NCBI GenBank assembly: GCA_036381035.1
Contig: DASVDQ010000026.1
Location: forward strand, 1-64,000
Source: Trueperaceae bacterium
GTDB taxonomy: Bacteria > Deinococcota > Deinococci > Deinococcales > Trueperaceae
Direction: 5' to 3'
DNA length: 64,000 nucleotides
Both the position numbers and the translations under genes were made by a program. The stretch's first letter is position 1. Each line of letters starts with the position of its first letter. Positions 42,027-47,859 of this stretch are shown here, piece by piece. Below the pieces are notes generated by a model, which saw only the letters and a program-made list of their open reading frames with translations, was not told where the DNA came from and ran no database searches.

Positions 42027-42052
42027 ACGTTCGGCCCATAGGTTCCGAACGT
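42027..42052. promoter_or_regulatory. 8-base inverted repeat upstream of GH26 lipoprotein (candidate operator)
   Basis: A perfect inverted repeat ACGTTCGG and CCGAACGT separated by 10 bases sits about 50 bases before the chosen GH26 start. Symmetric sites of this size and spacing resemble LacI/GntR-family operators, so it may control the polysaccharide locus. Confidence 0.45.
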
Positions 42053-42104
42053 GCCCGAAGCGACAACAAGGCTCCGGTCGAGCGCCCGGAAGGGCGATCG
42101 TCGG

Positions 42105-43115
42105 ATGAGCGTCTTCACACCGCACCTCCCCGCGAACGGTGTCCGGCGGTCGTCCCTCCTTCGCCTGCTCCTCGCGGCCGCCTTCGCACTGGTCGGCACC
42201 GCCTGCGCGAACCCCGACAACGCCCCGGAGAGCGCCTACGACGAGGGCGAGCCCGCGGTGATCGACCACGCCGCCCTGCCCCTGGCCCAGCGCGTGATGG
42301 TGGGGGCGTTCACCTACGGCGGCGTCTGGCAGGGCATGGGGCCCGTGCTCGACCTCGAGGCCGAGCTGGGCCGGCGCCTCGACGTCGTCCACTGGTTCAC
42401 GAACTGGCGCAACGAGGCCTACCCCGAGATGGTCATGGCGGTGGCGGAGGCGGGCAGGTACCCGCTGATCTCCTGGCAGCCGCACGACGTCGACGTCAGG
42501 GACATCGCCGCCGGGAAGCTCGACGACTACATCCGCTCCTGGGCGCGCGACCTCGCCGGCACCGGCGTCACCGTCTACCTGCGGCCGTTCCCCGAGATGA
42601 ACGGCGAGTGGGTGAGCTGGAACGGCGACCCCGCGGGCCTCGTCGCCGCCTGGCGGCACATGGCCGCGCTCTTCGAGGAGGAGGGCGCCACCAACGTCCG
42701 CTGGGTCTTCAGCCCCAACGTCACCGACGAGCCGCGCGTGGCCTCGAACCGCATGGAGCTCTACTACCCGGGCGACGACGTCGTGGACGTCCTCGCGCTC
42801 GACGGCTACAACTGGGGCACCACGCGCCCCTGGACCGAGTGGCGGGCGTTCGAGGAGGTCTTCGCCTCCGGCTACGCGCGCATCACCGCGCTCGGCCCCC
42901 AGCCGGTGTGGTTCGCCGAGCTCGCCAGCTCCACCGAGGGCGGCGACAAGGCGGGCTGGGTGCAGTCCATGCTCGACTCCACGGCGTTCGCGCGCCTCGA
43001 GGCCATCGTCTGGTTCGACGAGCACAAGGAGGCCGACTGGCGCATGGTCGCGGACCCGCGCGTCGCCGACGCCTTCCGCGCCGGCCTGACGCGCGCCGAC
43101 ATCGCGGCGCGCTGA
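42105..43115 (+). CDS. GH26-family glycoside hydrolase lipoprotein
   Basis: A 336-residue secreted lipoprotein. The leader ends in LVGTAC (lipobox near residue 33). The mature part matches glycoside hydrolase family 26 (beta-mannanase or related glucanases). The acid/base glutamate lies in LRPFPEMNGEWVSW and the nucleophile glutamate in PVWFAELASSTEG. Other signs are HWFTNWRNEAYPEM, PLISWQPHDVDV and NVRWVFSPNV. It likely cleaves a beta-linked polysaccharide outside the cell. ATG at 42105 puts the signal at the N-terminus; the frame is open to a GTG at 42051. Close neighbours are a sugar dehydrogenase-like protein and a polysaccharide synthase-like protein, so it may trim a self-made polymer. 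Confidence 0.85.
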   Translation: MSVFTPHLPANGVRRSSLLRLLLAAAFALVGTACANPDNAPESAYDEGEPAVIDHAALPLAQRVMVGAFTYGGVWQGMGPVLDLEAELGRRLDVVHWFTNWRNEAYPEMVMAVAEAGRYPLISWQPHDVDVRDIAAGKLDDYIRSWARDLAGTGVTVYLRPFPEMNGEWVSWNGDPAGLVAAWRHMAALFEEEGATNVRWVFSPNVTDEPRVASNRMELYYPGDDVVDVLALDGYNWGTTRPWTEWRAFEEVFASGYARITALGPQPVWFAELASSTEGGDKAGWVQSMLDSTAFARLEAIVWFDEHKEADWRMVADPRVADAFRAGLTRADIAAR

Positions 43116-43279: not shown

Positions 43280-44455
43280 TTGAGACGCCATCTCCCACTC
43301 TTCCTGCCGGTCTCGCTCGCGCTCCTCACAGTCACGGCCGCGGCCCAGCCCGCCTACGGGCTCGACGTCCTCTACGAGGGCCTCGAGAAGCCCGTCTCCG
43401 TGCTCGCGCTCGAGGGCGGCGGGCTCCTCCTCTCCTCCCTCGACGGACGCGTCTACCTGCTCGAGGACGGCGGGGTGCGCCCGCAGACGGTCCTCGACGT
43501 CACGCCCCGCGTCACCGCGCTGCAGGGAGAGCAGGGCTTCTACGGGGTCGCTCTCGAGCCGGAGGGCGCCGCCAGGGGCAGGCCCCGCTGGCTGGTGGCG
43601 GCCTACTCCGAGCGCGACACCGGCGACCTGATCGTCTCCGCGTTCCCCTACGACGACGAGGCCCACGTCGCGGACACGACCGCCGAGCGCGACCTCCTGC
43701 GCGTCGACGTGCCCGAGCCCTTCCACTACGCGGGGCACGTGAGCTTCGGCCCCGACGGCATGCTGTGGGTCAGCGTCGGCAACGGCGAGCGCTCGCCCGC
43801 GTACCTGCGCGTCCGCCCCTACTCCTCGCAGGACCTGTCGACGCTGCGCGGGAAGCTGCTGCGCCTCGACCTCTCCGGCGCCGCCCCGGGCGAGCCTTAC
43901 GCCGTCCCCCCCGACAACCCGTTCGTGGGCCAGCCGGGCGCGCGGCCCGAGATCTACGCGTACGGCTTCCGGAACCCCTGGAAGTTCTCGTTCCACCCCG
44001 AGACCGGCGAGGTGCTGCTCGAGGACGTCGGCGAGGACCGCTGGGAGGAGGTCAACGTGGTACGCCGCGGCGGCGACCACGGCTGGCCGGCGCGCGAGGG
44101 CCGCGAGTGCCTGGCGTACCCCGACGCCCCCGGCCTGGTGGAGCCGCGCTGCGAGGATCTCGACCAGGTGCCTCCCCTCCACGTCTACGGGCACCTCGCC
44201 ATCGACCCCGCGGGCGGCCAGGCCGCGACCGGCGGCGTCGTGGTGCGGGACCCCGAGCTGCCCGAGCTGGCGGGTCGCTACCTGTTCGCCGACTTCGTGA
44301 CCGGGCGCGTCTGGGCGCTCGACCTCGAGACCGGGGCGGCCGAGGAGCTGCTCGACACCGACCTACCCATCACCGAGCTGGCCGAGGGGCCGCACGGCGA
44401 GGTGCTCGTCGCCGAGATCAACGGGACGCTGTCCCGGCTGGTGCGACGGCCCTGA
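43280..44455 (+). CDS. Glucose/sorbosone dehydrogenase-like secreted beta-propeller
   Basis: A 391-residue exported protein of the soluble aldose sugar dehydrogenase (GSDH) family, six-bladed propellers that oxidise sugars with PQQ. The signal peptide is RRHLPLFLPVSLALLTV with cleavage after AAAQ (near residue 21). Visible GSDH marks are LQGEQGFYGVALEP (about 78-91), HYAGHVSFGPDGMLWVSVGNGE (with the conserved histidine in AGH), YAYGFRNPWKFSF, EDVGEDRWEEVNVV and GGDHGWP. The start is a TTG because no ATG or GTG precedes the signal. It ends 38 bases inside the opposite-strand glycosyltransferase gene. Confidence 0.87.
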   Translation: MRRHLPLFLPVSLALLTVTAAAQPAYGLDVLYEGLEKPVSVLALEGGGLLLSSLDGRVYLLEDGGVRPQTVLDVTPRVTALQGEQGFYGVALEPEGAARGRPRWLVAAYSERDTGDLIVSAFPYDDEAHVADTTAERDLLRVDVPEPFHYAGHVSFGPDGMLWVSVGNGERSPAYLRVRPYSSQDLSTLRGKLLRLDLSGAAPGEPYAVPPDNPFVGQPGARPEIYAYGFRNPWKFSFHPETGEVLLEDVGEDRWEEVNVVRRGGDHGWPAREGRECLAYPDAPGLVEPRCEDLDQVPPLHVYGHLAIDPAGGQAATGGVVVRDPELPELAGRYLFADFVTGRVWALDLETGAAEELLDTDLPITELAEGPHGEVLVAEINGTLSRLVRRP

Positions 44456-46997
44456 CCTCGCCGTCGGCCGACGCCAGGCCCGGCCCGTAGAGCCGGTCCA
44501 GCACCGCCGCGTAGAACCCCGAGTCGTCGATGCCGAGCTCGTCGACGAGCCCGGCGACGCGCGCGTAGGCGCTCTCCAGCCCGAGCTCGCCCGCCGCGAC
44601 GGCGCTCGACACGTCGAGCAGCGCGCGCTCGGCGGGCGCCACGGCGGCGGGGTCGGCGCGGTACGCCGCCACGACCGCCGCCAGGCCGTGCACCAGGTCG
44701 GCGAGCTTCGTCATGGCCTCGACGGGCGCCACGTGCGTGGGCGCCACGGCCCCGTCGCGCACGCCGTCGATGGGGTTGATGTAGCGGGCGTACGCGACCC
44801 GGCGGTCCTCCCCGAACGGCTGCGCGACCGCCCACGCGAGCTTCGCGGCGCCGGCGCACAGCGAGAACCCGGGGTCGTAGGCGCTGGCGCGGCGGGCGAA
44901 CAGCGCCGGGTTGGCGAACGGCGAGCCCGGGTCGGAGGAGATCGCCGCGAGCAGCGTCAGGGCGTCGGAGGTGACCTGGGAGAGGCCGAGGTCGTTGGTG
45001 GGCCCGTGCGCCAGCGGGTCGAGGTACGACTCGTTGATCAGCACCTGCAGGAGGAAGCCGGCGTCGACGTCGTAGGCCGTGGCCGCCTCCTCGAGGTGGG
45101 CCAGCAGCGGCGTGAGGCGGGCGAGCATGAACAGGCCCCACGGCGTGAGTGGCTCGTACGCCCCCGGTGCCTCGAGCCGCCGCTGCGCGGGCTCCTCGCC
45201 GTCCGCGAGCCGGTTCGCGTACGTGGCCACGCTCCCCGGCGGGCAGTAGGACGAGAGCCAGGGCGTCGCCGCGGGCGCGGGCTCCTCGACCTGCCGCGGC
45301 TGCTCGACGGCGAGCAGCGGCGGCAGCGGGAGGATCTCGAAGTCCTCCTGGTTCAGGCGCTGGACGGCGTGGACGTAGAGCCACGCGTCGCTGGGCCTGA
45401 GGTAGGTGCGTGCCACGTGGGCCGTGCCCGCGAACACGGAGAGGCTCAGCGCCAGCACCGCGGTGGCCACGCTGCCGGCGCGGCGGTACGCCGAGACCCC
45501 GAGGCTGGCGCGGGGACGCACCCAGGTGGTCACGGCCTCCTTGCGGACGCGCCCGGCCCGCGACGCCCGCCGCTGGGCCACGAACTGCGGCACCATGCGC
45601 GTGGCCGCCGTCACGTAGGCCAGGGCGTTGAGACCCCGCAGCAGCATCAGCGGCGCCACGCCGCGCAGCGCCACCCACAGCGCCCGCCCCCACGGGTCGC
45701 CCAGGCGCCTGGCGCCCGCGACGACGATGAGCAGGCTGGCGAGGGCGTCGATGCCGAGCCAAGCGGCGAGGGCCGTGGCCGGCATCGAGGCGTTCGGGAG
45801 AGCGTAGCGGAGGCCGAGGAGAGCGGGCAGGAGGAGCGCGAGGAAGAGCCCCAGGACGTTCTCGGCCTGCGCGGCGACGACGGTGAACGCCACGTTGGGC
45901 GCCAGGCCGCGGCGGCGCTCCGCCACGAAGAGCCGCTTGAGGGCGTTCTGGATGGCGCCGCCGTTCCAGCGCTCGACCTGGCGCAGGAAGCCGCCGAGGT
46001 GCGGCGGGTCCTCGGTGCGCATGAGCGCAGCGGGCACGAACCGCGCGTCCGCGCCGCGGCGCAGGACGACGGGGGTCCGGGGGCCGATGATGCTCGACAG
46101 CGGCCGCTCGCGGCCGTCCACCTCGAGGCGGAAGCCGCGCGCGTCGAGCTCGCCGGCGGTGGCGAGCTCCTCGGTCACCGGCGCGTTCTGCGCGGCCAGC
46201 GTCAGGTCGTGGTCCTCGGTGATCGTGTCGTCGGGCACCGGCAGCGCGTCGCGGCGCGCCACGAAGCCGCAGCCGACCACCGTGAAGAGGCGCGTGCGCC
46301 CGAACACCGCGCCCTCGCCGACCCGGCGGCACTGGCCGCCGCGCACGACCGCCGAGAACGCGTACTCGGCGTCGCGGCCGGCGGAGATCAGCCGCGACTG
46401 CAGCGAGGCGCCGGGCAGCGACCTCACGGCGCCCGACACCAGGGCGGCGTCCTCGAGGACGTAGCCGTGGCGGCCGTCGCCCAAGCGCCTGAAGTCGAGG
46501 CGGTAGGTGGCGCGGCGCGCCGCGGCGGCGAAGCCGGGGTGCAGCTCGGTGTCGCCGTCGACGATGAGGACCCTCTCGGCGACGAGGAGGCCCCGCTCGA
46601 GCAGCAGGTTGACGCTGCGCGCCTTCGACACCGGCAGGCGGTACTCGACGACGACGACCGCGGTCCTGGCGCCCTCGCGGCGCCAGCGCGTGACCGTGCA
46701 GTCGGCCAGCGCCTCCGGCTCCAGCGCCGCGTAGCCGGACGCGGCCAGCGTCGCCGCGACCACGGCGGGCGTGTCGTCGGTGCCGCCGTTGATGCTGACC
46801 AGGACCTCGTCGAAGGGCTCCGTCTGCGCCAGGAGCGAGCGCAGCGCCCGCGCGGCGCCGGCCTCCTCGTCGTACATGGGCGCCACCACGGCCAGCCGGT
46901 CGGGTCCCAGCGCCACCTTCCCCCGCTCGCGGACCAGGTTGAGGCACGCGTTCATGAGGACCGTCGGCATGGCCATGAGGCCCGGGAAGGGGATCAC
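44418..46997 (-). CDS. Fusion: GT2 polysaccharide synthase + lytic-transglycosylase-like domain
   Basis: An 859-residue membrane protein with two halves. The first half is a processive-type glycosyltransferase family 2 enzyme: an LAVVAPMYDEE start, a D-x-D motif DGDT (about 147-150), TEDHDL (about 260-265) and QVERW (340-344), the Q-x-x-R-W signature of cellulose/chitin/PNAG-type synthases. About three to four transmembrane helices follow (roughly 370-400, 408-427, 441-465) and another near 509-530. The second half (about 570-859) is extracytoplasmic and contains an SLT-like lysozyme fold: LLQVLINESYLDPLAHG with the likely catalytic Glu656, then DLGLSQVTSDAL. The topology puts synthesis inside and glycan cleavage outside in one chain. 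The GTG start is at 46997; ATG codons a few residues later are alternatives. Confidence 0.8.
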   Translation of the reverse strand: MIPFPGLMAMPTVLMNACLNLVRERGKVALGPDRLAVVAPMYDEEAGAARALRSLLAQTEPFDEVLVSINGGTDDTPAVVAATLAASGYAALEPEALADCTVTRWRREGARTAVVVVEYRLPVSKARSVNLLLERGLLVAERVLIVDGDTELHPGFAAAARRATYRLDFRRLGDGRHGYVLEDAALVSGAVRSLPGASLQSRLISAGRDAEYAFSAVVRGGQCRRVGEGAVFGRTRLFTVVGCGFVARRDALPVPDDTITEDHDLTLAAQNAPVTEELATAGELDARGFRLEVDGRERPLSSIIGPRTPVVLRRGADARFVPAALMRTEDPPHLGGFLRQVERWNGGAIQNALKRLFVAERRRGLAPNVAFTVVAAQAENVLGLFLALLLPALLGLRYALPNASMPATALAAWLGIDALASLLIVVAGARRLGDPWGRALWVALRGVAPLMLLRGLNALAYVTAATRMVPQFVAQRRASRAGRVRKEAVTTWVRPRASLGVSAYRRAGSVATAVLALSLSVFAGTAHVARTYLRPSDAWLYVHAVQRLNQEDFEILPLPPLLAVEQPRQVEEPAPAATPWLSSYCPPGSVATYANRLADGEEPAQRRLEAPGAYEPLTPWGLFMLARLTPLLAHLEEAATAYDVDAGFLLQVLINESYLDPLAHGPTNDLGLSQVTSDALTLLAAISSDPGSPFANPALFARRASAYDPGFSLCAGAAKLAWAVAQPFGEDRRVAYARYINPIDGVRDGAVAPTHVAPVEAMTKLADLVHGLAAVVAAYRADPAAVAPAERALLDVSSAVAAGELGLESAYARVAGLVDELGIDDSGFYAAVLDRLYGPGLASADGEVRAVAPAGTASR

Positions 46998-47217: not shown

Positions 47218-47859
47218 ATGGCCTGGCACGTAAGCGGCAAGCTCGCGGCCCTGGGGGTCGTGATCACCGCGCTCATCACCGCCTTCAGCGCCCCCCGCGA
47301 GCCCGCCGTCGCGGCGGTCGCCGAGCCCGCTCCCGTACACCTGACGCTGCAGCCCGTCGCCGCCCTGCGCGACCAGCCCGTCGACGCCGACCTCCGCTTC
47401 ACCGTCAGCGTTGGGCCCGAGCCGACGCCTCGCCTGGTGCTGCGCGCCACCGGCTACAACTCGGTGGCCGGCCAGACCGACGCGACGCCCTACGTCACGG
47501 CCACCGGCGCCAGGACGCGGTTCGGCGTCGTGGCCGTGAGCCGCGACCTGCTCGGCAGCAGCCTGCCCTACGGCTCGCTGGTGCGGCTCAGGGACCTGGG
47601 CAGCTACTACACGGGCCGGGGCGCCGGGGCGTTCCAGAAGCTCCTCGACTCGCAGACGCTCTTCATCGTCGAGGACACGATGCACTCGCGGAAGTCGCAG
47701 CAGATCGACGTCTGGTTCCCCGACTACTCGACCGCCATCAGCTGGGGCGTGCGGAAGGTCGAGGTCGAGGTCGTGCGCTACGGACGCTTCGGCCCGGAGC
47801 TGGACACCGCGCACGCCGAGGACTTCGAGGCCGTGCCACAGCTGGTCGCGCTGCGCTGA
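47218..47859 (+). CDS. 3D-domain (MltA/RlpA-like) exported protein
   Basis: A 213-residue exported protein with an N-terminal hydrophobic signal/anchor (residues 8-25). The C-terminal domain carries the three-aspartate '3D' pattern: ATGYNSVAGQTDATPYVTA, GVVAVSRDLL, YGSLVRLRDLG and IDVWFPDYSTAISWGVRKVEVEVV (read in blocks). The 3D fold is a double-psi beta-barrel found in MltA transglycosylases, RlpA and Stationary-phase survival-like hydrolases, so it may cut peptidoglycan or bind a glycan. It is divergent from the GT2-SLT gene through a structured intergenic region. Confidence 0.82.
   Translation: MAWHVSGKLAALGVVITALITAFSAPREPAVAAVAEPAPVHLTLQPVAALRDQPVDADLRFTVSVGPEPTPRLVLRATGYNSVAGQTDATPYVTATGARTRFGVVAVSRDLLGSSLPYGSLVRLRDLGSYYTGRGAGAFQKLLDSQTLFIVEDTMHSRKSQQIDVWFPDYSTAISWGVRKVEVEVVRYGRFGPELDTAHAEDFEAVPQLVALR

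Follow-up and report, generated by a model that had tools for sequence, protein, structure and literature searches.

The passage of polysaccharides from the inner membrane through the peptidoglycan is largely an open question, and a locus of a Trueperaceae bacterium raises the question of whether a glycan synthase may carry a wall cutter of its own. The locus lies on contig DASVDQ010000026.1, in a stretch of 64,000 nucleotides that was analysed as a whole and is referred to here as the window. A preliminary description of the window, made from the sequence alone, had read an ORF at 44418-46997 on the minus strand as a family 2 glycosyltransferase (GT2) synthase fused to a lytic-transglycosylase-like (SLT) domain, and had proposed that one chain could build a glycan inside and cut outside. 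The ORF is present at these coordinates, and the motifs quoted from it, viz., DGDT, TEDHD, QVERW, LLQVLINESYLDP with E656, and DLGLSQV, were all found at the residues assigned to them (Table 1). Profile, alignment and structure-model evidence agrees with a GT2 domain, membrane helices and a predicted extracytoplasmic SLT domain with an intact Glu; on sequence and model evidence, the 859-residue product is confirmed as a putative membrane-embedded, processive-type GT2 synthase joined to an SLT lytic-transglycosylase domain.

Table 1. Features of the fusion gene, its predicted domains and neighbouring genes in the window
Feature	Position	Strand	Basis or remark
Secreted GH26, cassette partner	42051..43115	+	PF02156; nearest Lic26A; both catalytic Glu
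Secreted glucose/sorbosone dehydrogenase-like (GSDH) protein, cassette partner	43280..44455	+	TTG start proposed
GT2-SLT fusion gene, 859 aa	44418..46997	-	GTG start at 46997, stop 44418-44420
Cytoplasmic GT2 catalytic domain, residues 33-370	45888..46901	-	Pfam PF13632/PF00535 and AlphaFold/Foldseek
DGDT (DxD) motif, residues 147-150	46548..46559	-	Invariant, n=22
TEDHD motif (TED, general base), residues 260-264	46206..46220	-	Invariant, n=22
QVERW (QxxRW) motif, residues 340-344	45966..45980	-	Q, E, R, W invariant
Two predicted membrane helices, residues 367-432	45702..45899	-	Hydropathy; AlphaFold model helices 367-399 and 404-431
Last membrane helix, residues 508-532	45402..45476	-	Hydropathy and model; basic loop 466-507 precedes
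Variable tether, residues 533-584	45246..45401	-	Homologue comparison
SLT lytic-transglycosylase-like domain, residues 585-745	44763..45245	-	Pfam SLT, MltC alignment, Slt profile match, Foldseek
Predicted catalytic Glu656 (NES motif)	45030..45032	-	Aligned to E217, E. coli MltC
C-terminal helical extension, residues 746-839	44481..44762	-	Kept across fusion family
Possible 3D-like wall protein, 213 aa, predicted secreted	47218..47859	+	By eye; divergent from fusion

The GT2 half and its membrane helices

The first half of the fusion matches the Pfam families Glyco_trans_2_3 (33.1 bits against a cut-off of 27) and Glycos_transf_2, and a GT2 family was matched by all 22 homologues when each was scanned singly against Pfam. 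GT2 and SLT profiles both score above cut-off in these HMM searches, in agreement with the earlier assignment of the two halves. Among the residues of GT2, D147, D149, E261, D262, D264, Q340, R343 and W344 are invariant in an alignment of 22 sequences, and a full-chain AlphaFold model built on the alignment has a mean pLDDT of 87 and predicts a GT-A catalytic domain integrated with membrane helices. Foldseek searches using the whole chain match hyaluronan, chitin and cellulose synthases, hyaluronan synthases being the best, and a weak NCBIfam match of the protein is NodC; a single-sequence search of the PDB initiated using the fusion returned spurious matches only.

AlphaFold models helices at residues 367-399, 404-431, 436-480 and 501-532; clear membrane helices number only about three by prediction, whereas hyaluronan and cellulose synthases have more. 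The 436-480 helix is likely an interface helix like those of hyaluronan and cellulose synthases. From these features we infer a processive GT2 that makes and translocates a polymer, with the translocation, and hence a self-made export channel, being uncertain given the few membrane helices. The loop before the last helix (residues 466-507) is strongly basic in 22 of 22 sequences (net +3 to +10 over 33-42 residues), and the segment that follows this helix is mostly neutral to acidic. Because of the basic loop, the positive-inside rule would place the SLT domain outside, hydropathy and charge being the two lines of evidence that point to this location. The SLT domain has two invariant cysteines, Cys585 and Cys714; a disulfide between them is possible and would agree with an extracytoplasmic location. 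The tether that joins the last helix to the SLT domain varies from 48 to 184 residues among homologues and is composed mostly of Ala, Gly, Pro, Asp, Glu, Ser, Thr and Gln.

The SLT half

The Pfam SLT family (PF01464) matches residues 636-737 of the fusion at 25.3 bits (cut-off 21.3). The profile scores of the fusion against this family are modest (25.3-28.5 bits). Scanned one by one, 21 of the 22 homologues match the family, and the residues N655, E656, G671, Q674, Y736, Y739 and N741 are invariant in the 22-sequence alignment. The best PDB match of a profile of the C-terminal part is that of E. coli MltC, with E656 on E217, and an MltC entry with Gln in place of E217 likewise aligns to this profile. 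The only other SLT-domain protein in the window's genome is a canonical Slt (contig C5:20923-21258); profile-profile comparison of the C-terminal part with it gives an E-value of 1e-5 and a probability of 82%, with the Glu, GLxQ and Tyr motifs in register between the two, and with the usual GLMQ being GLSQ in the fusion. Matches above the Pfam cut-off in 21 of 22 homologues, together with this motif register, rule out a chance resemblance. When modelled alone using AlphaFold, the C-terminal part has a pLDDT of 88.7, and the matches listed by Foldseek, viz., MltE, MltF, MltC, MltD and Slt, are all lytic transglycosylases, with probabilities of up to 1.00 and a best E-value that is weak (0.013). 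The lysozyme-like fold proposed in the preliminary description is borne out by these structural matches, and the position of Glu656 as the catalytic residue by its alignment with E217 of MltC and its register with the genome's Slt. The substrate of the domain is presumably peptidoglycan. The extension at residues 746-839 did not match any family and could bind the wall or the polymer.

Conservation along the fusion is highest in the SLT core (residues 646-745), at a column mean of 0.76 with 30 invariant residues, followed by the GT2 catalytic domain at 0.63, and is lowest in the last helix (0.40) and the tether (0.38). It has to be asked whether the SLT domain is mainly an anchor that positions the synthase by binding peptidoglycan, with cutting being unnecessary. 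Its modest similarity to canonical SLT domains and the GLSQ in place of GLMQ could be read in this way, but all 22 sequences keep the catalytic Glu, Gln and Tyr unchanged and the core is conserved above all other regions, as would be expected of a working active site, so that we consider an anchoring role quite unlikely. The GT2 and SLT halves diverge in step (Mantel r 0.92, 0/2000 permutations), and the genomes of the relatives yielded no free-standing protein closely related to either half.

Distribution of the fusion

An alignment search found the fusion gene in 23 of 111 Deinococcota genomes, all 23 being within Trueperaceae (39 genomes), and in none of the 72 other Deinococcota genomes; of the Trueperaceae genomes sampled, 23 out of 37 carry relatives of the fusion. 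A genome-wide search of the window's own genome revealed a single copy. Near-complete single fusion ORFs account for 22 of the 23 copies, and the other (G023), a fragment at a contig edge, retains the SLT part with the NES motif. The preliminary description had feared that homologues might lack the C-terminal part owing to an assembly join; the same architecture is present in 22 genomes, and a join is ruled out by the uninterrupted ORF in 22 independent assemblies, including a single-contig genome of 2.9 Mb (G006) that carries the fusion as one ORF.

Outside Deinococcota, the search was made using exact peptide patterns in public contigs, and also covered plasmids and viral contigs. The fusion was not found in plasmids or viral contigs. 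In public contigs, a single-protein query gave no match and an alignment query retrieved 18 Trueperaceae or Deinococcota loci and one contig labelled Hyphomicrobiales. The latter (CSSed10_249R1, locus L047) encodes a truncated relative of the fusion with 49% identity, and is probably a Trueperaceae contig in the wrong bin or else an instance of transfer.

The fusion belongs to a GH26-GSDH cassette

The GH26 encoded in the window (PF02156, 39.3 bits) is closest to the Clostridium thermocellum lichenase Lic26A (endoglucanase H), with an E-value of 5e-50 and both catalytic Glu aligned, and both catalytic-Glu motifs are present in many of its GH26 homologues. Of the 23 fusion genomes, 20 have GH26, as against 0 of the 14 fusion-less ones (Fisher p 1e-7, uncorrected for phylogeny), and two of the three fusion genomes without a detected GH26 are assemblies that are <90% complete. 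The GSDH gene is convergent with the fusion gene and overlaps its 3' end; its best matches (E below 1e-70) are from 15 genomes, every one of them fusion-bearing, and weaker matches look like paralogues.

Where the contig suffices, the gene order is proC, tgt (reverse), one or two copies of GH26, GSDH, the fusion (reverse), the possible 3D-like gene, an ABC permease and recX. Six fusion-less genomes have an empty site, with proC, tgt, the 3D-like gene and the permease present, recX detected in four, and nothing detected from tgt to the 3D-like gene. The comparison of filled and empty slots thus identifies a cassette of GH26, GSDH and the fusion, which some genomes have and others lack between tgt and the 3D-like gene; in a few genera the cassette is located elsewhere. 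Two tandem copies of GH26 were seen in the cassette of several genomes (L066-L069, L071), and up to five copies, on other contigs, in genomes of the genus g2.

Given a partner GH26 that most resembles a beta-1,3-1,4-glucanase, the product of the synthase is probably a beta-glucan. This bears on whether the SLT domain might cut the synthase's own product, a GlcNAc-containing polymer of chitin- or hyaluronan-like kind, so as to trim or release it and set its chain length. GH23 enzymes of the lysozyme fold include chitinases, and such cutting would be in keeping with this, with the structural closeness of the GT2 half to hyaluronan and chitin synthases, and with the weak match to NodC. Two points tell against it: the conserved lichenase-like partner points to a beta-glucan, which one would not expect an SLT enzyme to attack, and the cassette already encodes an apparent trimming enzyme apart from the fusion. 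Own-product cutting is, on balance, unlikely.

The possible 3D-like protein has no Pfam match. Its gene is a core gene, present in 38 of 39 Trueperaceae genomes whether or not they carry the fusion, and was on this ground set aside as a functional partner; it adjoins the cassette in some genomes only, and like the ABC permease is a neighbour rather than a partner. This also bears on the reading that the fusion modifies the wall and makes no free polymer, the GT2 domain making a glycan that is short or attached to the wall, with the SLT domain remodelling peptidoglycan for growth or division. The few membrane helices, the NodC-like layout and the adjacency of the fusion to a core gene for a possible wall protein in several genera are consistent with such a role. 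We nevertheless regard it as very unlikely, since this neighbour occurs in the family irrespective of the fusion, and because 14 genomes do without the fusion, whose actual companions are GH26 and GSDH.

Comparison with known systems

The BcsA-BcsB-BcsZ-BcsC system of cellulose synthesis shares with the Trueperaceae locus a GT2 with DxD, TED and QxxRW motifs and a secreted endoglucanase partner, but the fusion has fewer membrane helices and an added SLT domain. Searches of the window's genome (assembly 96% complete) gave no PF03170 match for a BcsB relative and no PF05420 match for the outer-membrane exporter BcsC, and the fusion was thus not assigned to the cellulose complex; a PilZ domain was not found. 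The absence of a BcsB or BcsC relative from this genome counts against export of the polymer as regards its exit across the outer membrane. The likeness to hyaluronan synthase and NodC is structural, at only 12-14% identity in structural alignment, and the membrane layout of the fusion is nearer to that of NodC, the product of which is short oligosaccharides, than to that of hyaluronan or cellulose synthases. Neither hyaluronan synthase nor NodC is known to carry a wall-cutting domain. Family 1 lytic transglycosylases (Slt, MltC, MltE, MltF, MltD) share the fold of the SLT half, as judged by Foldseek, with Glu, GLxQ and Tyr in register; relative to these, the fusion adds about 12 residues after GLSQ, the invariant Cys pair, the C-terminal helical extension and the synthase.

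The closest working parallel is found in Streptomyces, where the CslA glucan depends for its arrival at the surface on two peptidoglycan remodellers, the glucanase CslZ and the oxidase LpmP (PMC9040799), and the cluster encodes the membrane-associated CslZ and the oxidase GlxA (PMC9040799, PMC11022532). The CslA-GlxA-CslZ system with LpmP resembles the Trueperaceae locus in having a GT2 glucan synthase and dedicated peptidoglycan-remodelling enzymes; Streptomyces opens the wall using stand-alone enzymes (a lytic polysaccharide monooxygenase and a glucanase), whereas the SLT cutter of Trueperaceae is fused to the synthase. Here GH26 and GSDH are compared with CslZ and GlxA by description only. 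BgsA and RiGT2 are bacterial (1,3;1,4)-beta-glucan GT2 synthases with D, D, D, QxxRW motifs (PMC10374906) and, also compared by description, are relevant because of the lichenase-like GH26 partner of the fusion; RiGT2 has a C-terminal PilZ domain, and an SLT domain is not reported.

Proposed function and implications

The preliminary description suggested that no synthase with an SLT partner had been described and, within open-access literature of incomplete coverage, we likewise found no published fusion of a GT2 with a lytic transglycosylase. What is new is the combination of domains from two known kinds of enzyme, within the GH26-GSDH cassette.

We lean, with some reserve, towards a beta-glucan-type synthase that holds a peptidoglycan cutter on a tether to make an opening in the wall at the exit point of the polymer, by analogy with the separate CslA, CslZ and LpmP of Streptomyces. 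On the cytoplasmic side, the GT2 domain would build a beta-linked glycan from a nucleotide sugar; this glycan, probably a beta-glucan, would be fed outward via the membrane helices of the synthase itself. The flexible tether, of about 50-180 residues, would keep the SLT-type lytic transglycosylase at the exit side, where it may cleave MurNAc-GlcNAc bonds locally and allow the polymer to pass the wall, and the polymer would be processed or set free by the secreted GH26 glucanase, the part played by BcsZ and CslZ in cellulose systems. Of the two uses offered earlier for coupling synthesis inside to cutting outside, opening of the peptidoglycan would thus be the better fit; product release would fit less well, the GH26 being lichenase-like and a trimming glucanase therefore apparently encoded separately. 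It is highly improbable, in our view, that the SLT domain acts as a ligase, breaking a peptidoglycan strand and passing its glycan end to the nascent polymer emerging from the same protein, and so linking the exported polysaccharide covalently to the wall where it is made.

A synthase with its own tethered wall cutter would, if true, be a direct physical answer to how a polysaccharide passes the wall, and a point change, E656Q, would separate cutting from synthesis. The co-occurrence of the fusion with a lichenase-like GH26 points to an unrecognised glucan in Trueperaceae, and the conserved pairing of synthase and cutter suggests a route by which a growing polysaccharide may be taken through the wall.
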